A stretch of 64,000 nucleotides of DNA from Roseateles puraquae (GTDB taxonomy: Bacteria > Pseudomonadota > Gammaproteobacteria > Burkholderiales > Burkholderiaceae_C): contig NZ_NISI01000017.1 in NCBI RefSeq assembly GCF_002205845.1, forward strand, positions 1-64,000, read 5' to 3'. Shown here piece by piece: positions 4,312-30,535 of this stretch (positions are counted from its first letter, which is position 1; every line of letters starts with the position of its first letter). The notes below the pieces were generated by a model that saw nothing but the letters and a program-made list of their open reading frames with translations, made no database searches and was not told the origin of the DNA. The position numbers and the translations under genes are program-made.

Positions 4312-5124
4312 CTACCCAAGTATTGATCGATACAGCATTGCCAGCGCCACACCGCCTGCCAAGAGCCCGAAGGCTTGCTGTATCCGCGCGCCGCTCAAGC
4401 GCTGGCTCACTTCCCGCCCGGCGACCAAAGCACCGGCGGCACCGGCCGCGAATGGCAGAGCGATTGCCCAATTCATGCCTCCTTGTGACGCGGCTCCCAA
4501 CACGCCGCCGACGGACACCAGTGCAATCACGGCCATCGATGTGGCCACCACACCGCGCGTTGGCACATCGCTGAAGCCGCCCAGCATCGGCACGATGACA
4601 AACCCTCCACCGACGCCGAGCAGCCCACTGAGCAGCCCGGAAAGTGCACCGGTTGCAGACAAGACTGCAGTGCATGGCGCGCGCCAGGACAGCCGCCCCG
4701 TGGCAGGATTCATCGCACAAACGGGACGCTTGCGCTGTAGTGTCGACGCGGATGTGCGCCGCGCCTGGCGCAAGTTGCGCCAAGCCACCCACCCCAGGAT
4801 CGCCGCGAAGACCGCCATCACGGGCCCGTTGGGAAGCAGGTGGGACAGCCAAACGCCCAGCGGCGCGATCAGCATCCCCGTCAACCCGATGAGCAGAGCC
4901 GCCCGGTACCGCACGACGCCCTCCCTCAGCCCAAGCAGCGCGCCCACGGAGGCCGCCAGGCCCACCGCCAGGAGCCCGACAGGTGCCGCCTGCGACATTT
5001 GCAGATGCAGACCAAACACCAAAAGTGGCACCGCCAGGATGCCGCCCCCGGCGCCGGTCAGCGCCAGCACGACCCCCACAGCGGCGCCCATCAGCAGACT
5101 GAGCGCGGTGACATCCATCACCAT
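4312..5124 (-). CDS. TauE/SafE-family sulfite/sulfur anion exporter
   Basis: This is a hydrophobic membrane protein of about 270 residues with two homologous halves, each carrying a glycine-rich signature (ALTGAGGGILAVPLLVFG and GLLGVGGGFVIVPMLGG), typical of TauE/SafE permeases. Members move sulfite, sulfoacetate or related sulfur anions across the inner membrane. The ATG at 5124 was chosen because it falls just after the stop of the upstream SQR gene at 5129. A longer frame from 5163 would overlap that gene. It is the last gene of the persulfide dioxygenase-SQR-TauE operon, which suggests export of sulfite or thiosulfate made during sulfide oxidation. Confidence 0.85.
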   Translation of the reverse strand: MVMDVTALSLLMGAAVGVVLALTGAGGGILAVPLLVFGLHLQMSQAAPVGLLAVGLAASVGALLGLREGVVRYRAALLIGLTGMLIAPLGVWLSHLLPNGPVMAVFAAILGWVAWRNLRQARRTSASTLQRKRPVCAMNPATGRLSWRAPCTAVLSATGALSGLLSGLLGVGGGFVIVPMLGGFSDVPTRGVVATSMAVIALVSVGGVLGAASQGGMNWAIALPFAAGAAGALVAGREVSQRLSGARIQQAFGLLAGGVALAMLYRSILG

Positions 5125-5128
5125 GGGC

Positions 5129-6796
5129 TCAACCCACCATTTCCGGTTCAGCCAGCCACTCACGCCCTTTGAGCATGCCTTCCCAGTACAGCGGCGGCAG
5201 GATGCGCTCCTTGAGCAGCCAGGCCAGGCGTGAAGGCTCGGTGCCGTTGATCAGCCACTTCGGGAAGCTCGGCGCGACCTTGCCGCCGTAGGTGAACTCC
5301 GCCAGCACGATCTTTCCGCGCTCCACGGTCAGCGGGCATGACCCGTAGCCGTCGTAGCGTGCCTCACCCTTGGCGGCGCCGCGAGCAGCGAGCACGTTGT
5401 GTGCGACGACCGGCGCCTGCTTGCGAGCTGCTGCCGCGGTCTTGGCGTTGCTGGTGTTGGCCGCATCGCCGAGTGCAAAGATGTTGGCGAAGGTCTTGTG
5501 GCGCAGCGTTGCCGGGTCCACGTCGACCCAGCCTGCCGCGTCGGAAAGGGGGCTCACGCGGATGAAGTCCGGCGCCTTCTGGGGCGGCACGACATGGATC
5601 ATGTCGAATTCGCGGACGACGCACGTCTTGCTGCCATCGGGATTCGCCATGCTGAAGGTCGCCTTGCGAGCGCCCCCGTCGATCGCGGTGAGCGTCTGGC
5701 CGAAGTTCAAATGAATGCCGTAGGTCTCCACGTAGCGCATCAGCGCGGGGACGTAGTCGGCAACACCGAACAGCACCGCGCCGGCGTTGCAGAACTGGAT
5801 GTCGATGTCCCGCAGCGCGCCAGTGCGAAGCCAGTGATCCGCCGACAGATACATCGCCTTCTGCGGCGCGCCAGCGCACTTGATGGGCATGGGAGGCTGG
5901 GTGAACACGGCACGACCACCGCGCAGCCGCTGAACCAGTTCCCAGGTGTAGGGCGCGAGGTCGTAGCGGTAGTTCGACGTGACGCCATTGCGCCCCAACG
6001 TCTCAACCAGACCCTCGATGCCATGCCAATCGAGCTTGAGCCCAGGGCACACCACCAACTGCTTGTACTTGACCACGCGGCAGCCATCGAGGATGACCGC
6101 ATCGCGCTCAGGCTCGAAGGCCGCCACGGCCGACTTCAGCCAGTGCACGCCCCTGGGCAACACGGACGCCAGAGTTCTCGCAGTCGTCGAGGCGTCGAAC
6201 ACACCGCCGCCCACCAGGGTCCAGCCCGGCTGGTAGTAGTGCACATCGGCTGGGTCGATGATCGCGATGTCCAGCCCGGGCTGGCGTGCCAGCAGGCTCG
6301 ACGCCACGGCGATGCCCGCGGCACCCGCGCCGATGATGACGACCTCGTGCGAGGCGTCCGCCACCTCGACCGGCGTCTTGCCGCCGTTGACCAGCCGGCG
6401 CACCACGCCTTTCAGGTCGTAGCCAGCACGGGCGGCGCGCTCGATGATCTCGGGTAGCGGCCGCTGGCCCGACTGCGACAGCGCCCACATCGTGGTCGAG
6501 CGCATCCCGGTGCGGCAGAAGGCCAGCACGGGCTTGGGGCTCGCGTCCATCAGCGCGCCGAACTGGCGCCCCTGCTCATCGGTCACCTTGCCGGATTCAG
6601 CGGGCAAGTAATGCAATGCAAGGCCCATTCCGCGCGCAGCGGCTTGCAGTTCGGCGAAGACGGGCTGGTCGTTGCCCTCCCCATCCGGGCGATTGCAGAT
6701 CACCGTGCGAAAGCCTGCGTTGGCAATCTCTTGCAGGTCAGGCGCGTGGATCTGGGCGGCGACCGCCAATTCAGGCGTCAGGGTCTTGAGTTCCAT
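5129..6796 (-). CDS. Fusion of DUF442 (TIGR01244) phosphatase-like sulfurtransferase and sulfide:quinone oxidoreductase
   Basis: The 555-residue protein has two parts. Residues 1-115 form a DUF442/TIGR01244 domain with a PTP-like loop CRTGMRS, catalytic Cys94, thought to act as a sulfur transferase. Residues from about 150 on are an FAD-dependent sulfide:quinone oxidoreductase (dinucleotide motif VVIIGAGAAGIAVAS; Cys in VVCPGLK and in PIKCAGAPQK; C-terminal EWL segments). SQR oxidises sulfide to sulfane sulfur and passes electrons to quinone at the membrane. The fusion would let the persulfide be handed on directly. It sits between a persulfide dioxygenase gene and a TauE gene, all on the minus strand behind a sigma54-type promoter. 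Confidence 0.9.
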   Translation of the reverse strand: MELKTLTPELAVAAQIHAPDLQEIANAGFRTVICNRPDGEGNDQPVFAELQAAARGMGLALHYLPAESGKVTDEQGRQFGALMDASPKPVLAFCRTGMRSTTMWALSQSGQRPLPEIIERAARAGYDLKGVVRRLVNGGKTPVEVADASHEVVIIGAGAAGIAVASSLLARQPGLDIAIIDPADVHYYQPGWTLVGGGVFDASTTARTLASVLPRGVHWLKSAVAAFEPERDAVILDGCRVVKYKQLVVCPGLKLDWHGIEGLVETLGRNGVTSNYRYDLAPYTWELVQRLRGGRAVFTQPPMPIKCAGAPQKAMYLSADHWLRTGALRDIDIQFCNAGAVLFGVADYVPALMRYVETYGIHLNFGQTLTAIDGGARKATFSMANPDGSKTCVVREFDMIHVVPPQKAPDFIRVSPLSDAAGWVDVDPATLRHKTFANIFALGDAANTSNAKTAAAARKQAPVVAHNVLAARGAAKGEARYDGYGSCPLTVERGKIVLAEFTYGGKVAPSFPKWLINGTEPSRLAWLLKERILPPLYWEGMLKGREWLAEPEMVG

Positions 6797-6824: not shown

Positions 6825-7748
6825 TCAGACCGCGTTGAGCGGGATCTTCAGGTAGCGCACACCGTTGTCTTCGGCCGGCGGCAAGGCACCCGCACGCATG
6901 TTGACCTGCACCGACGGAAGGATCAGCGTGGGCATGCCGAGCGTGGCGTCGCGTGCATTGCGCATGGCCACGAACGCGTCTTCGCTGATGCCGTCGCGAA
7001 CGTGGACGTTGCTGGCTCGCTCTTCCGCCACCGTGCTGACGAACTGCACCTCACGACCGCCGGGCTGGTAGTCATGGCACATGTAGAGCTTGGTGGCCGG
7101 CGGCAGGCTCAACACCTTGTTGATTGACCGGTACAGCATCCGGGCATCGCCGCCAGGGAAATCGCAGCGGGCGGTGCCGTAGTCGGGCATGAAGAGCGTG
7201 TCACCCACGAAGGCGGCGATCTCGGCATCGGTGCCCTCGCCTGCCGTCACCACGTAGGTCATGCAGGCCGGTGTGTGGCCAGGCGTGTGCAGCGCGCGGG
7301 CTTGCAGGCCGCCGATGGTGAAGGACTCGTCGTCCTTGAAGAGGTGGTCGAACTGGCTGCCGTCACGCGCAAAGTCCGGCCCGGCATTGAAGAGCGTGCC
7401 GAAAACGTTCTGCACGGTGGTGATGTGCTGGCCAATGCCCAGCCGACCGCCGAGCGCCTTCTGGAGGTAGGGCGCCGCCGACAGGTGGTCCGCGTGGACG
7501 TGCGTTTCAAGAATCCACTGAACCTGGGCGCCGAGGTCCCGCACGCGGGCGATGAGCCGGTCCGCACTGGCGGTGTCCGTGCGGCCGGACTTGGGGTCGA
7601 AGTCCAGCACGCTGTCGACCAACGCGCACTGCATCGTCTGTGCGTCCAGCACCAGGTAGCTCACGGTCCAGGTCGCAGGGTCGAAGAAGCCCTCCACCTG
7701 GAGGCGCGGGGCTGTTGCCGGGGCGGTTGTCGTTGGGGTGGTGCTCAA
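6825..7748 (-). CDS. MBL-fold persulfide dioxygenase (ETHE1/Blh type)
   Basis: This metallo-beta-lactamase-fold protein has the ETHE1-like iron/zinc site THVHADH, with later ligands in HTPGHTPAC and GDTLF. It is expected to oxidise glutathione persulfide to sulfite in the cytoplasm, the step after SQR. The start is set at TTG 7748 because AGGAG (7759-7755) lies six bases upstream and this gives the family length of about 307 residues. The open frame continues to an ATG at 7847, but that ATG would precede the predicted sigma54 transcription start. It is the first gene of the operon with DUF442-SQR and TauE. Confidence 0.88.
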   Translation of the reverse strand: MSTTPTTTAPATAPRLQVEGFFDPATWTVSYLVLDAQTMQCALVDSVLDFDPKSGRTDTASADRLIARVRDLGAQVQWILETHVHADHLSAAPYLQKALGGRLGIGQHITTVQNVFGTLFNAGPDFARDGSQFDHLFKDDESFTIGGLQARALHTPGHTPACMTYVVTAGEGTDAEIAAFVGDTLFMPDYGTARCDFPGGDARMLYRSINKVLSLPPATKLYMCHDYQPGGREVQFVSTVAEERASNVHVRDGISEDAFVAMRNARDATLGMPTLILPSVQVNMRAGALPPAEDNGVRYLKIPLNAV

Positions 7749-7821
7749 GGGGGTCTCCTGGTCGCTGACTGCTTCAGCCGGGGTGGCATGGCAGTTGCGG
7801 GTGGTCAAGTGCCCCAACATG

Positions 7822-7837
7822 ATCAAGAGCCGTGCCA
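7822..7837 (-). promoter_or_regulatory. Sigma54 (-24/-12) promoter of the pdo-sqr-tauE operon
   Basis: On the minus strand the sequence TGGCACGGCTCTTGAT matches the RpoN consensus TGGCACG-N4-TTGC except at the last base of the -12 element. It lies about 75 bp before the TTG start of the dioxygenase gene and is faced by a sigma54 activator gene. An almost identical element precedes the cyd operon at 27217. Confidence 0.75.
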
Positions 7838-7925
7838 ACCCTGGCAATCAGTAGACGACTCCGCTAAGTAACTGATTTGCAAAGAACTAGAGGCATCAAG
7901 CCCGAACCCTGCCGCCCGCTGCGCC

Positions 7926-7980
7926 ACTGCCATCTGCCGCTGCCTGGCACGCTGTGGCAGAAGATGGCAGAAGATGGCAA
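7926..7980. promoter_or_regulatory. Upstream activator sites (TGGCAG/CTGCCA repeats)
   Basis: The stretch holds ACTGCCATCTGCCGCTGCC and then a tandem repeat TGGCAGAAGA, TGGCAGAAGA, TGGCAA (about 7955-7980). It is 90-145 bp upstream of the -24/-12 element, the usual place for enhancer-binding-protein sites, and overlaps the start of the FisR-like gene, so it may also set its autoregulation. The 11-mer TGCCATCTGCC also occurs upstream of cydP. Confidence 0.6.
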
Positions 7981-9341
7981 CCACTTCCGTCAGCCTCACC
8001 ATGCCCACGCCACCCTCGCCCACTCCGCAAGTTCAAGCCCTGGTGTCCTACCTGGAACACGAGTCGCAGCCCATGATCGTGCTGGACCCGGACTACAACA
8101 TCCTCGCGGCGAACACGGCCTACCAGCGCCAGTTCGGGACAGCCGACCGGCCCTACCTCGGCCACAAGTGCTTCCGCGTCTCGCACCACTACGACGTGCC
8201 GTGCGACCAGGCTGGCGAGCACTGCCCGATGCGCCGCGCCTTCGAGCTCAAGGGGCCTGACCGCGTGCTGCACATCCATCACACGCCGCGCGGCCCGGAG
8301 CATGTGGACGTGGAACTGCGCCCCATCCTCGACGGCGATCGTCAGGTGGTGGCCTACGTCGAGCGGCTGACCACCGTGAAGCACGCCTCGGCCCGTGCCA
8401 ACCAGGCAGGTCTGGTGGGGCGGTCGCCGGCGTTCAATACCGCGCTGGAATCCGTCCAGCGGGTGGCTCGGTCGCAGCTGCCGGTGCTGTTGCAGGGGGA
8501 GTCCGGCACGGGCAAGGAATTGTTTGCGCGCGCTGTCCACGAGGTGAGCGATCGGCACGGCGGCCCGTTCGTCGTCGTCGACTGCTCAGGGCTGCCCGAG
8601 ACGCTCTTCGAGAGCGAGTTGTTCGGCCACGAGAAGGGTGCGTTCACTGGCGCCATGCACCGCAAGCCGGGGCTCGTCGAAACCGCGGCCGGTGGGACGC
8701 TGTTCCTCGACGAGATCGGCGACGTGCCGCTGGGCATGCAGGTCAAGCTGCTGCGGCTGATCGAGTCGGGTACTTTCCGGCGGGTTGGTGCAACCGAAAC
8801 CCAGCAGGCGGACTTCCGCCTCGTGGCAGCCACGCACAAGCCGCTCCAGCAGATGGTGGCCGACGGCAGCTTCCGGCAAGACCTCTACTACCGCATCGCC
8901 GCCTTTCCGATCTACCTGCCACCGCTGCGCGAGCGTGCGGGCGACATTCCCCTGCTCGTGGACTCATTCCTGCAGCGGGGCGGCAAGGCAGCATCGACGG
9001 TGGTGATCCAGCCTGCCGCCATGGCCCGGCTGCAGGCCCACAACTGGCCCGGCAACATCCGCGAGTTGCGGAACGTGCTGGAGCGCGCCCGGTTGTTTGC
9101 TGACGACGGCGTGGTGCGACCCGAACACCTGCCCGAGTGGCTGCACGGGCGCCCTCACCCACTGCCGCCGGCCGCACCCGCCACGTCGGCCAGCCCGCCG
9201 CCGGCGCCCGCGCGTGATGTCGATGCCGAGATTCGCCGCATGGTGCAGGACGGCCAGCTCAGCCGCCGTGAGATGGCGGAGTCGCTGGGCCTCAGCGAGC
9301 GTACCTTCTACCGGCGACTGAAGGCACTCGGGCTGAGTTGA
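7974..9341 (+). CDS. fisR: FisR-like sigma54-dependent activator sensing sulfane sulfur
   Basis: The 455-residue protein has an N-terminal PAS-like sensor, a central AAA+ domain (Walker [15 protein letters not shown] loop for sigma54 contact, Walker [11 protein letters not shown]) and a C-terminal Fis-type helix-turn-helix ([21 protein letters not shown]). The sensor has three cysteines at 66, 77 and 84, spaced 11 and 7. This is exactly the spacing described for the persulfide-sensing Cys53/64/71 of FisR from Cupriavidus, which activates pdo-sqr. It is divergent from such an operon. ATG 8001 (Met10) is an alternative start. The first ATG overlaps the TGGCAG repeats. Confidence 0.88.
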
Positions 9342-26586: not shown

Positions 26587-27012
26587 CTATCGCCGTAGGG
26601 TGCTATCCACCCAGACGCCCAGCTGCGCCGCAGTCATGGCCCCACTCTGGCGAGCCACCTCCCGCCCGCCCACGAAGAGCAGCGTGGTCGGGATGCTGCG
26701 AATCTGCAGCGCTGCGCTGCTCTGGGGCGCGGCGTCGCTGTCGACCTTGACGAAACGCAGGTCTGGCCGTGCCTGCGCCAGTTGCGCAAAGTGCGGCGCG
26801 TACGAACGGCAGGGGCCGCACCAGGCCGCCCAGAAGTCCACCAGCACGGGCGCCTCCGTGCCCTGAAGGTAGGCGCTGAGGTCGGCATCGCCGAGGGCCA
26901 CGGGCTGGCGAGGCGCCACCGGCTGGCCGCAACGCCCGCAGGTGGGGTCGTCGGCCAGGCGTTCATCGGGGACGCGGTTGCGGGTGCCGCAGTGGGGGCA
27001 GACGAGCAGCAT
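26587..27012 (-). CDS. trxC: Thioredoxin 2 (zinc-binding)
   Basis: The 141-residue protein has an N-terminal zinc ribbon with two CxxC pairs (VCPHCG and CGRCGQ) followed by a thioredoxin domain with the active site WAAWCGPCRS and cis-Pro in SIPTTLLF. This is the layout of TrxC, an oxidative-stress thioredoxin. ATG 27012 was chosen as it starts the canonical MLLVCPHCG. A longer frame to 27042 adds non-family residues. It is divergent from the cyd operon and close to its predicted FisR sites, so it could share that control. Confidence 0.92.
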   Translation of the reverse strand: MLLVCPHCGTRNRVPDERLADDPTCGRCGQPVAPRQPVALGDADLSAYLQGTEAPVLVDFWAAWCGPCRSYAPHFAQLAQARPDLRFVKVDSDAAPQSSAALQIRSIPTTLLFVGGREVARQSGAMTAAQLGVWVDSTLRR

Positions 27013-27072
27013 GTGGGGCTCCAACAGGGATTCCGAGCGCATATCGGGCGGCGCCGACGGGCTTCAAGGGCG

Positions 27073-27126
27073 GCATGCCATCTGCCATCGCCCACTGCCA
27101 TTTCTCATGTGGCAGTCGTGACTGCC
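27073..27126. promoter_or_regulatory. FisR-type activator sites upstream of the cyd operon
   Basis: The region repeats TGCCA: ATGCCATCTGCCATCGCC, then CACTGCCAT, then the perfect dyad GGCAGTC-GT-GACTGCC (27111-27126). The 11-mer TGCCATCTGCC is shared with the region beside fisR at 7928. It lies 90-145 bp upstream of the -24/-12 element at 27217, the same distance as in the sqr operon. Confidence 0.6.
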
Positions 27127-27216
27127 AGCCGGCCAGCCCCTGGCAGAACCGTGCTGCCAGATGGGAAAGTCAGCCGGGACAGCGACTTAGCGCGCAACCG
27201 CCCAGCTCGCCTCGGC

Positions 27217-27232
27217 TGGCACGGTTCTTGGA
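27217..27232 (+). promoter_or_regulatory. Sigma54 (-24/-12) promoter of the cyd operon
   Basis: TGGCACGGTTCTTGGA matches the element of the sqr operon (TGGCACGGCTCTTGAT) in 13 of the first 14 bases. The expected transcription start near 27242 nearly coincides with the cydP ATG at 27244, leaving little or no leader. Confidence 0.7.
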
Positions 27233-27243
27233 ATGACGTGGGC

Positions 27244-27420
27244 ATGCCTCGCGATGAACACCGCCTCGTCCGCCACCTGGCCTGGGTGGTCGTCATCAAG
27301 CTGCTGGCGCTCGGCGGGCTGTGGTGGGTGTTCGTGCGTGACCAGCATGTCCGCACCGACGCTGCCGCGGCCGCCCAGCACCTCACAGCGCCTGCCCCCG
27401 ACCAAGGAGAACCCCGGTGA
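27244..27420 (+). CDS. cydP: CydP, small membrane protein of the cytochrome bd operon
   Basis: The 58-residue protein has one transmembrane segment ([20 protein letters not shown]) after a basic N-terminus (RDEHRLVRH). It matches the small CydP subunits encoded before cydA in many proteobacteria. Its stop overlaps the GTG start of cydA (GTGA), so the two are coupled. The ATG is almost at the predicted sigma54 transcription start, so it may be translated leaderless or from a second promoter. Confidence 0.8.
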
Positions 27421-28973
27421 TCTCGGAACATGTCGTCGACCTGTCGCGGCTGCAGTTCGCAGCCACGGCGATGTACCACTTCCTCTTCGTGCCGCTGACG
27501 CTGGGCATGGTGTGGCTGCTGGTCATCATGGAGACCGTCTATGTGATGACAGGCAAGACGGTATGGAAGGACATGACCCGCTTCTGGGGCAAGCTCTTCG
27601 GCATCAACTTCGCACTCGGGGTCACCACGGGCATCACGCTGGAGTTCCAGTTCGGCACGAACTGGGCTTACTACTCGCACTACGTGGGCGACATCTTCGG
27701 GGCGCCGCTGGCCATCGAGGGCCTGATGGCCTTCTTCCTGGAATCGACCTTCATCGGCCTGTTCTTCTTCGGCTGGGACCGGCTCTCGCGCCCGCAGCAT
27801 CTGCTCGTGACCACCTTGATGGCCGTCGGCACCAACCTGTCGGCGCTGTGGATCCTGATCGCCAACGGCTGGATGCAGAACCCGGTGGGTGCCGAATTCA
27901 GCTATCAGACCATGCGCATGGAGATGACCGACTTCTGGGCCGTCGTGTTCAACCCCGACGCGCAGGCCAAGTTTGTGCACACCGTGTCGGCCGGCTATGT
28001 GACGGGGGCGATGTTCGTGCTGTCCATCAGCAGCTGGTATCTGCTCAAGGGGCGGGACGTGGAGTTCGCCAAGCGCAGCTTTCGCGTGGCGTCGGCCTTC
28101 GGCCTGGCCAGTGTGCTCAGCGTGATCGTGCTCGGTGACGAATCCGGCTACACGGTCGGCGAGGCCCAACAGACCAAAATGGCTGCCATCGAAGCGATGT
28201 GGGAGACCGAGCCCGCACCGGCCAGCTTCAACATGATCGCGGGCATCAACGAGGCCGAGCAGAAGAACGACTGGGCCGTCGAGATCCCCTACGTCATGGG
28301 CATCATCGGCACGCGCAGCTTGAGCAAAGAGATCCCCGGCATCCGCGACATCAAGGCCAAGAACCGCGAGCGCATCGAGCGCGGCGTCCAGGCCGTCATC
28401 GCCCTGGAAGCCCTGCGCAAGCACCGGGGCGACGCAGCAGCGCTGGAAGCCTTCGAGCGCCACAAGGCCGACCTCGGCTTCGGTCTTCTGCTGAAGAAAT
28501 ACGTCACCGATGTGCGCCAGGCCACGCCAGACATCATTGAGCGTGCTGTGAACGACACCGTGCCGCGCGTGGCGCCGATGTTCTGGAGTTTCCGCCTCAT
28601 GGTGGGTCTGGGCATGCTGATGCTGGCCCTGTTCGCCCTCTCGTTCTGGACGACGCTGCGCGGCGCCTGTGCCCACAAGCCTTGGCTGCTGAAGTGGGCG
28701 CTGTGGATGCTGCCAACGCCCTGGATTGCGTGTGAGCTGGGCTGGGTGGTGGCGGAGTACGGCCGCCAGCCGTGGACGATCTACGGCGTGCTGCCCACGC
28801 ACCTGAGCGTGTCGACGCTCAGTGCCGAAAGCCTCTACGGGTCGCTGGCCGGCTTCGTGGGCTTCTACACCGTGCTGCTGATCGTCGAGGTCTACCTGAT
28901 GGTGAAGTTCGCCCGTCAGGGCCCGGGCAGCCTGGGCACCGGCCGCTACCAGTTCGAACCGGCTCACGCCTGA
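27417..28973 (+). CDS. cydA: Cytochrome bd ubiquinol oxidase subunit I
   Basis: The 518-residue multi-helix membrane protein starts at GTG 27417 with AAGGAGA upstream. CydA features are visible: the opening [22 protein letters not shown] (heme ligand His), [38 protein letters not shown] and the [13 protein letters not shown] segment. It oxidises quinol and reduces oxygen with little sensitivity to sulfide, which fits co-control with sulfide oxidation. It forms an operon with cydP, cydB, cydX and ybgE. Confidence 0.96.
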
Positions 28974-28983
28974 GGAGAGAAGG

Positions 28984-30126
28984 ATGCTCGATTACGCCAC
29001 TCTCAAGATCATCTGGTGGGTTCTCGTCGGCGTGCTGCTCGTCGGCTTCGCCATCATGGACGGCCATGACATGGGCGTGGGCACCCTGCTGCCCTTCGCT
29101 GGCCGCATCGACGAGGAACGCCGCGTTGTCATCAACACGGTCGGCCCGCACTGGGACGGCAACCAGGTCTGGTTCATCACGGCGGGCGGGGCCATCTTCG
29201 CGGCCTGGCCGCTGGTCTACGCCACCGCCTTTAGCGGCTTCTACTGGGCGCTGCTTGCGGTCTTGTGGGCGCTGTTCTTCCGCCCCGTCGGTTTCGACTA
29301 CCGCAGCAAGATCCATGACGCCCGCTGGCGCAGCACCTGGGATTGGGGCCTGTTCGTTGGCGGCGCCGTGCCTCCGCTGATCTTCGGCGTGGCCTTTGGC
29401 AACCTGTTGCAGGGCGTGCCCTTCCAGTTCGACGACTACCTCGTCAGCACCTACACCGGCAGCTTCTGGCAGCTGCTCAATCCCTTCGCTCTGCTCGCTG
29501 GCGTGGTCAGCAGCGCGATGATCACGATGCACGGCGGCACCTACCTGGCGCACCGCACCGAGGGTGTGATCCAGTCTCGTGCAATCTCCGCTGCACGCGG
29601 TGCTGCGCTGGTCACGATCATGGCTTTCGTGGCTGCCGGTCTTTGGCTGCGAGTCGGCGGCATCGAAGGCTTCGCGATGGCCCAGACGCCCGACCCGAAC
29701 GCCTTGCCGGACCCGCTGGCCAAGGTGGTCGTTCGCAGCGCTGAGGGCTGGTGGACCAACTACCAGCACCAGCCCGCGCTGTGGGCCCTGCCGCTGCTCG
29801 GCGTGCTGGGCCCAGCCGCCGCGGCTGCACTGGTGAGCGTTCGGCGCACCCTGTCGGCCTTCGTGGCCTCGTCTCTGGCGATGCTCGGCATCATCGGCAC
29901 GGCGGGTGCTGCGATGTTCCCGTTCATCATGCCCTCCTCCAGCATGCCCAACGCCAGCCTCACCGTCTGGGACAGCGTCTCCAGCCCGATGACGCTCGCG
30001 CTGATGCTCGGTGCCACGGTCATCTTCATGCCGCTGATCGTGCTCTACACGAGCTGGGCCTACCGCGTGATGCGCGGCAAGGTCACGGTCGAGCACATCC
30101 GCGCCAACGAACACACCGCCTACTGA
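28984..30126 (+). CDS. cydB: Cytochrome bd ubiquinol oxidase subunit II
   Basis: This 380-residue polytopic protein begins MLDYATLKIIWWVLVGVLLV with the family segments MDGHDMGVGTLLPF, TVGPHWDGNQVWFIT and GFDYRSK. It is the structural partner of CydA. GAGGAGAAGG precedes the ATG and the gene starts ten bases after cydA. The N-terminal DGHD(M)G motif is as in canonical CydB. Confidence 0.96.
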   Translation: MLDYATLKIIWWVLVGVLLVGFAIMDGHDMGVGTLLPFAGRIDEERRVVINTVGPHWDGNQVWFITAGGAIFAAWPLVYATAFSGFYWALLAVLWALFFRPVGFDYRSKIHDARWRSTWDWGLFVGGAVPPLIFGVAFGNLLQGVPFQFDDYLVSTYTGSFWQLLNPFALLAGVVSSAMITMHGGTYLAHRTEGVIQSRAISAARGAALVTIMAFVAAGLWLRVGGIEGFAMAQTPDPNALPDPLAKVVVRSAEGWWTNYQHQPALWALPLLGVLGPAAAAALVSVRRTLSAFVASSLAMLGIIGTAGAAMFPFIMPSSSMPNASLTVWDSVSSPMTLALMLGATVIFMPLIVLYTSWAYRVMRGKVTVEHIRANEHTAY

Positions 30127-30137
30127 AAGGAACTGCC

Positions 30138-30260
30138 ATGTGGTACTTCGCCTGGATCCTCGGTGTCGGCTTTGCCGTGCTGCTGGCCGTGATGAATGCG
30201 ATGTGGGGCGAGATGGCCGAGGACCGCCGCGCCTCGCATCGCCGGGATGACGCGGCATGA
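30138..30260 (+). CDS. cydX: Cytochrome bd small subunit CydX
   Basis: The 40-residue protein begins MWYFAWILGVGFAVLLAVMNAMW and continues GEMAEDR, which is the CydX signature. It has one transmembrane helix and stabilises the oxidase hemes. AAAGGAAC lies before the ATG. It starts eleven bases after cydB and overlaps the next gene (ATGA). Confidence 0.95.
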   Translation: MWYFAWILGVGFAVLLAVMNAMWGEMAEDRRASHRRDDAA

Positions 30261-30535
30261 GCGCCCCGGCCCCAACAAGCCTGCATTGGCCCAGCCTCAC
30301 GGCGGGGTTGGTGCTGATGCTCGCCGGCACGGCCTATCCCCTCGTGTTCGCCCGTCCGGATGGACATGCCGACCATGGCCTGGCCCTGCTGCTCTTCTGG
30401 GCGATGAGCGCAGGGTTCGTGCGCGGGGTGGGCTTCATCCCGCGGCACCGGGCTTGGCGGGGGCTGTTTTCTGGATGGGCTTGCCTCGCTGCAATCGCGC
30501 TGGCGGCGTTGAGCGTCGGCCTAAGGGCGGGCTGA
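30257..30535 (+). CDS. ybgE: YbgE-like cyd operon membrane protein
   Basis: The 92-residue protein has three hydrophobic stretches (LTAGLVLMLAGTAYPLVFA, LALLLFWAMSAGFVRGVGF, WACLAAIALAALSVGL) and the FVRGVGFIPRHRAWR loop typical of YbgE proteins encoded after cydX. The function is unknown, probably oxidase assembly or regulation. It overlaps cydX by ATGA and closes the operon. Confidence 0.85.
   Translation: MSAPAPTSLHWPSLTAGLVLMLAGTAYPLVFARPDGHADHGLALLLFWAMSAGFVRGVGFIPRHRAWRGLFSGWACLAAIALAALSVGLRAG

Follow-up and report, generated by a model that had tools for sequence, protein, structure and literature searches.

The DNA analysed here (the window) is a stretch of 64,000 nt from Roseateles puraquae (assembly GCF_002205845.1, contig NZ_NISI01000017.1, positions 1–64,000, forward strand). 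It carries a cytochrome bd operon that is complete for CydA, CydB and CydP according to Pfam and NCBIfam models, together with an upstream control region:

26587–27042, minus strand: TrxC-like thioredoxin gene (NCBIfam PRK10996 TrxC, over its cut-off)
27076–27159, plus strand: putative FisR enhancer array of seven TGCCA/TGGCA half-sites (starts at 27076, 27083, 27096, 27110, 27123, 27141 and 27155)
27177–27189, plus strand: degenerate IHF-like element GGACAGCGACTTA, between the array and the cyd promoter
27217–27232, plus strand: sigma54-type -24/-12 element TGGCACGGTTCTTGGA before cydP (promoter model score 18.0)
27244–27420, plus strand: cydP (NCBIfam NF045611, over its cut-off)
27417–28973, plus strand: cydA, cytochrome bd subunit I (Pfam PF01654; NCBIfam models below their cut-offs)
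28984–30126, plus strand: cydB, cytochrome bd subunit II (Pfam PF02322; NCBIfam TIGR00203 over its cut-off)
30138–30260, plus strand: cydX-like small ORF of 40 aa (MWYFAWILG...), which, read by eye from its sequence, we take to be cydX
30257–30535, plus strand: YbgE-like small membrane ORF, by eye presumably ybgE; similar ORFs (cluster c6) lie behind cydB in relatives

The TrxC-like gene and cydP diverge from either side of the array, as they do in the congener G005. Thioredoxins reduce persulfides, and this gene might come under the same control as cydP. Comparisons were made with 20 genus genomes, 399 family genomes and named loci from GTDB contigs. Gene clusters were derived with a crude ORF caller, which sometimes fused neighbours, and cluster c1 contains both PDO and Rieske proteins; neighbour genes are named with confidence only where the protein was checked against Pfam.

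A second locus, located 19 kb from cyd, carries predicted sulfide oxidation genes and their candidate regulator:

4312–5163, minus strand: gene assumed to encode a TauE-like transporter (no NCBIfam match)
5129–6796, minus strand: sqr with an N-terminal sulfur-transferase domain (TIGR01244 over its cut-off; SQR model below)
6825–7847, minus strand: pdo, persulfide-dioxygenase-like (below-cut-off match to the dioxygenase part of Blh), with a probable TTG start near 7748
7822–7837, minus strand: sigma54-type element TGGCACGGCTCTTGAT of pdo-sqr
7865–7877, minus strand: IHF-like element AATCAGTTACTTA, between the array and the pdo-sqr promoter
7928–7979, minus strand: five half-sites forming a putative FisR enhancer array for pdo-sqr
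7974–9341, plus strand: fisR, with PAS_4 and Sigma54_activat domains, an HTH-like C-terminus, GAFTGA and C-x10-C-x6-C motifs

The fisR gene is divergent from pdo, sqr and the TauE-like gene, and the sigma54-type promoter precedes pdo-sqr. Its product matches PAS_4 and Sigma54_activat well over the Pfam cut-offs, while the C-terminus combines a weak HTH_24 match below the cut-off (20.3 vs 21.9 bits) with a readable Fis-like sequence. Among the best 25 of 29 NCBIfam matches no model reached its cut-off, so the name FisR rests on the domains, cysteines, neighbourhood and published descriptions. Of 80 FisRs, 79, including that of the window, carry the C-x10-C-x6-C motif in the usual context and 77 carry GAFTGA; the third FisR cysteine is C71. 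At E<=1e-95 the genome encodes one FisR, the next best protein having an E-value of 3.3e-71, and two PF04552 matches over the cut-off represent rpoN. There is therefore one clear candidate regulator, provided that the array is a FisR array.

As stated in the preliminary description, two words are shared by the control regions of both loci: exact copies of the 14-mer TGGCACGGYTCTTG are located at 7824–7837 (minus strand) and 27217–27230 (plus strand), and those of the 11-mer TGCCATCTGCC at 7928 and 27076. The orientation of the 11-mer relative to the two promoters is opposite, since pdo-sqr runs on the minus strand. Taken singly, both words are weak evidence within the window: four hits to the 14-mer with up to two mismatches were found versus 1.40 expected (7 of 100 shuffles reached four), and five hits to the 11-mer with up to one mismatch versus 2.90 expected (17 shuffles reached five). 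A chance likeness of short words could draw on these figures. However, it has to contend with the clustering of half-sites, the uniqueness of the signal in the genome and its recurrence across genera, and it is disfavoured by the control cyd sets described below; we give it a practically negligible probability. Within 110 bp there are seven TGCCA/TGGCA half-sites at 27076 and five at 7928, and the cyd and pdo arrays rank first and second for half-site density in the window. Clusters of at least six half-sites appeared in none of 200 dinucleotide shuffles and clusters of five in 12 of 200, so the pdo array by itself is non-significant in this test. A search of the 6.06 Mb genome located exact TGGCACGGYTCTTG in two places only, the cyd and pdo-sqr promoters, and in seven more places with one mismatch. 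Of the 20 sigma54-like TGGCAYGNNNYTTG elements in the genome, only those of cyd and pdo-sqr had at least three half-sites in the 260 bp upstream (seven and six, respectively, versus 0–2 at the other 18).

The likeness of the cyd and sulfide promoters is thus real, given the array clusters and a 14-mer unique genome-wide to both. The signal resides in the array rather than in the exact words; the top word of the cyd array is that of pdo promoters. The exact 11-mer, considered as the key element, was set aside, since the half-site array carries the signal. The common distance of 90–145 bp between activator sites and promoter that had been proposed for both loci holds roughly: measured upstream from where the -24 element begins, half-sites start at 95–142 bp in the pdo array and at 62–141 bp in the cyd array.

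The sigma54 consensus is TGGCACG-N4-TTGCW, with GG at -24 and GC at -12. In the window the -24 box is perfect, while the -12 box has TTGG at cyd and TTGA at pdo in place of TTGC, which counts against control of cyd by FisR; TTGA is also the majority form at -12 among 27 non-cyd FisR-linked promoters. The IHF-like element GGACAGCGACTTA is identical in G005 and in part retained in G010. A strict match to the IHF consensus, WATCARNNNNTTR, was present in 9 of 27 cyd promoters and was not found in the cyd promoter of the window, which also counts against the proposed control; binding of IHF between array and promoter is plausible in some relatives.

Within the genus, this type of cydA is present in four of the 20 genomes, all of which have fisR. 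Retention of the motif before cydP in related species, on which the earlier proposal depended, was observed in all four, each carrying the TGGCACGGNTCTTG element; the sigma54-type element TGGCACGGTTCTTGGA is retained in G005, G010 and G018. The half-site array is present in three of the four (G000, G005 and G010, with seven, six and three half-sites), and in G010 the gene immediately upstream of cydP, in the same orientation, is fisR. Two results count against the link between FisR and cyd: G018 has retained the promoter and lost the array (0 half-sites), and four more genus genomes (4/8 of those bearing fisR) have fisR without this cydA. A second FisR-like gene (L206, G018:C31; 49%, cut by the stretch end) was noted in G018, at a distance of about 8 kb from its cyd operon.

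At the family level, cydA was detected in 86 of 399 genomes (E<=1e-150), and the matches fell into two groups, one of high identity (>=83%; 37 matches, 36 genomes) and one of lower identity (<=68%; 54 matches); FisR was detected in 75 of 399 genomes (E<=1e-95). FisR was present in 28 of the 36 genomes with high-identity cydA versus 47 of the 363 others (p 4e-16; kinship is ignored in this and the other tests), and in 7 of 50 genomes with lower-identity cydA. The eight high-identity genomes without FisR, two of them incomplete, count against a FisR–cyd link. We fetched 79 fisR loci, comprising 74 of 78 family matches and five congeners, with G289, G094 and G426 (contig ends) lying outside this set. 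In 28 of the 79, a high-identity cydA was located within about 5 kb of fisR, with an intervening gene in some; 25 of these were on the opposite strand and three in tandem. In named genomes, a FisR of at least 300 bits was found in the flanks of 15 of 27 loci with CydA of at least 70% identity versus 2 of 53 loci with CydA below 70%, and a FisR of at least 100 bits in 17 of 27 (one gene cut by a contig end) versus 5 of 53. The FisR-flanked loci with CydA of at least 70% come from Comamonadaceae, Sphaerotilaceae, Cupriavidus, Oxalobacteraceae, Chromobacteriaceae, Hydrogenophilales, Gallionellaceae, Azoarcus, one Pseudomonas and MAGs, the last accounting for several loci. FisR and cytochrome bd are a recurrent pairing in Betaproteobacteria.

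This pairing bears on whether cyd answers to a different sigma54 activator, the common word being convergent. The genome does encode 12 proteins besides FisR among the 13 that match it at E<=1e-3. Nevertheless, the enhancer word is the same as in fisR-divergent promoters and fisR itself adjoins cyd in relatives, and we hold such an activator to be exceedingly unlikely.

Several named clusters join sulfide oxidation genes and cyd directly. The C. basilensis KF708 cluster runs sqr, pdo, fisR, cydPAB, tauE. C. metallidurans CH34 has a similar array and promoter behind fisR, before tauE, and no cyd was found within the fetched 8 kb flanks of that fisR. In P. alcaliphila, pdo, sqr and cydPAB lie on the same strand within about 5 kb, as do sqr and cydPAB in Methylophilus aquaticus, where a PDO-like ORF was recognised by eye. 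Both of the CydA <70% loci with a 300-bit FisR are from Neptunomonas, with an SQR-like gene (35–36%) before cydAB and a FisR-like gene with three cysteines behind. Pseudomonas sp. LD120 (L214) carries a pdo-fisR-cydPAB run of betaproteobacterial type, and the presence of such a run in Pseudomonas suggests horizontal transfer of the unit.

A promoter model of 16 positions was trained on 27 FisR-divergent non-cyd promoters picked by consensus pattern, with a cut-off score of 14. This score was reached by 26 of 38 high-identity cyd loci, made up of 24 of 33 (30 family loci and three congeners), 0 of 2 later loci, both fisR-less, and 2 of the last 3, which bear fisR; G204 and G154 (cut by contig ends) were unscored among the 37 family matches. 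Among named loci it was reached by 9 of 25 with CydA of at least 70% and by 0 of 52 with CydA below 70%, and among lower-identity family loci by 1 of 38; two of the 27 named high-identity loci and one of the 53 named controls had less than 600 bp upstream and were unscored, and 16 of the 54 lower-identity family matches lay outside the test. In the family table (n=32), the cut-off was reached by 20 of 26 loci whose genomes bear fisR and by 1 of 6 whose genomes lack it (p 0.011). The 12 of 38 high-identity loci with scores below 14 count against the FisR–cyd link, as do the 6 of 26 low-scoring family loci from genomes with fisR, the single high-scoring one from a genome without it, and the one low score among the last three loci. 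Measured against mononucleotide shuffles, TGCCA/TGGCA was the top enriched 5-mer in all three promoter sets, with z values of 31 (20 clade A fisR-divergent promoters), 29 (27 cyd promoters) and 24 (22 other clade B promoters). In cyd promoters the half-sites often form inverted pairs with 3–4 base spacing (18 cases), whereas direct repeats with 4–6 base spacing are commoner in pdo promoters (29 cases); the arrays thus have the half-site in common and differ in layout.

In Anr/FNR control of cyd, which concerns the same oxidase family, the signal is oxygen and the boxes are TTGA-N6-TCAA, and cyd in the window could be chiefly under such control, the sigma54 element being minor. FNR-like boxes do occur at 4 of 33 cyd loci of FisR type, compared with 18 of 52 controls. 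They are thus rarer in the FisR-type loci than in the controls (p 0.024), and none was found in the 500 bp before cydA of the window. We consider control chiefly by FNR/Anr very unlikely. These box counts disfavour FNR as the main control of cyd.

The transcription start, predicted by stepping 12 bases on from the -12 position, coincides with the cydP start codon in the window. An in-frame ATG or GTG at predicted +1 to +4 was found in 19 of 27 cyd promoters (window 27230–27246 and relatives L010–L097), compared with 3 of 27 other FisR promoters under a lenient count of ATG/GTG in any frame (p 2e-5). With start codon and predicted sigma54 start falling together, these data suggest a leaderless or near-leaderless cydP mRNA from the sigma54-type promoter, including in the window.

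A quick tree of 98 FisRs (midpoint root, three short rows left out, 35 of 95 inner branches unresolved) contains two main clades. Clade A (31 rows, support 100) includes the window and Cupriavidus and has an adjoining pdo in 24 rows; clade B (58 rows, support 99) has an adjoining cyd in 29. Seven clade A rows at several separate places in the tree, including the window, have both pdo and cyd, and one has cyd and a more distant PDO homologue. All seven rows branching outside both clades (some on long branches) are cyd-linked. Among the 27 non-cyd promoters of FisR type, 17 belong to clade B fisRs. Since the window's FisR groups with the regulators of sulfide oxidation, persulfide is a likely signal for cyd. 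FisR could also bind the array in response to another cyd signal, such as NO, cyanide or general thiol/redox stress rather than sulfane sulfur, given that cytochrome bd withstands several poisons, that a cytochrome bd of Chromobacterium is reported to confer resistance to metals, NO, sulfide and cyanide, and that several clade B fisRs adjoin Rieske-like or CcoG-like genes, not sqr. However, in the window one protein must serve both operons and belongs to the clade with adjoining pdo in 24 of 31 rows, and the three cysteines are retained in both clades; a signal other than sulfane sulfur is therefore judged unlikely.

Taken together, these data make it quite probable that cydPAB(X) is a second FisR target, and that persulfide-sensing FisR induces sulfide oxidation and cytochrome bd together. 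The earlier proposal that FisR induces both sulfide removal and cytochrome bd is thus supported by sequence comparison and appears broader than first stated, as the arrangement recurs beyond the genus and fisR often adjoins cydPAB. In this mechanism FisR would occupy the TGCCA/TGGCA array 60–140 bp upstream of the cyd promoter, persulfide or polysulfide would modify the conserved cysteines in its PAS-containing sensor part, and its AAA+ domain would then drive sigma54-RNA polymerase at the -24/-12 element, possibly assisted by DNA bending by IHF. Transcription of cyd would begin at or beside the cydP start codon. Sulfide blocks haem-copper oxidases, and SQR passes electrons from sulfide to the quinone pool; sulfide would induce SQR, PDO and a sulfide-tolerant quinol oxidase able to take the SQR electrons from that pool. 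If true, one sensor raising SQR/PDO and such an oxidase would explain continued respiration under sulfide. It would also offer a direct, testable cause for the sulfide induction of cytochrome bd in Betaproteobacteria and a DNA signature for locating the FisR regulon, and hints at FisR-like sensors serving several respiratory components.

In published accounts, FisR is a sulfane-sulfur-responsive regulator (PMC12170894, PMC9774590, PMC8614764) with three conserved cysteines (PMC9774590) and a C53-C64 tetrasulfide (PMC8614764), and the FisR-pdo2/sqr regulon of Cupriavidus pinatubonensis JMP134 was described by Li et al. (2017, Mol Microbiol 105:373), as given in PMC12170894, PMC9774590 and PMC8614764. 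By these accounts the JMP134 protein resembles that predicted in the window as a sigma54 activator of sulfide-oxidising genes with three conserved cysteines and an 11-residue step corresponding to C53-C64. Here the target would be extended to cytochrome bd; the proteins compared were the C. metallidurans and C. basilensis homologues. In the available text on Acinetobacter baumannii, a FisR-dependent pdo-sqr-tauE operon is divergent from fisR, cydAB is induced by Na2S alongside it, and cytochrome bd is called refractory to sulfide; no FisR dependence of cydAB or fisR-mutant value was found in that text (PMC7315123). Both the FisR operon layout, which is as here, and the rise of cydAB with Na2S are points of likeness. 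As a difference that counts against the FisR–cyd link, the FisR-type promoter is absent at the two other Acinetobacter cyd loci scored (L250 and L263; scores 2.1 and -0.3).

Stress regulators of other families, not sigma54 activators, are also reported to adjust cytochrome bd, namely YgaV in the sulfide response of E. coli (PMC11858517) and a MarR-type repressor in C. violaceum (PMC11837568). PMC8148161 lists FisR among sulfide-specific repressors, yet draws it as an activator. CydP in Burkholderia is treated in PMC9104464, and RpoN, sigma54 and sulfide are absent from its text. PMC4626219 and PMC2864759 refer to cydAB, and no sigma54 control of these genes was found in the passages concerned; the latter paper records two cydAB pairs for CH34. 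The link had been presented as not known to have been described, and in the open-access literature searched we likewise found no naming of cyd as a target of FisR or sigma54.

More tentatively, and with rather less confidence than would make it the expected outcome, FisR-type sensors may guard the respiratory chain as a whole and not just sulfide oxidation, with cytochrome bd an old, perhaps original, target and sqr-pdo one branch (clade A); those of clade B may control cytochrome bd, Rieske-like proteins and a CcoG-type oxidase maturation protein via the TGCCA array and the TGGCACGnnTCTTGAT promoter. The cyd linkage of all seven rows outside the two clades and the 17 of 27 non-cyd promoters in clade B speak for this reading; a recount of these promoters and the lack of a Pfam match for a further neighbour, a 210-aa protein, lowered our confidence in it. 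Clade B fisRs without a nearby cyd (L149, L155, L157, L163, L172, L177–L179, L184–L187, L199 and L200) are oriented divergently to membrane genes that are Rieske-like, CcoG-like or cytochrome c-bearing, identified by Pfam in L157 and L186 and by cluster or by eye in the rest. Many of these loci have the same array and promoter, which raises the question of a wider respiratory regulon. Several cydPAB clusters adjoining fisR (L151, L158, L160, L162, L165, L188, L189, L191; L194, L195) carry a 210-aa protein that appears MBL-like by eye (no Pfam match for the L177 homologue searched), a Rieske-like protein or a truncated globin.
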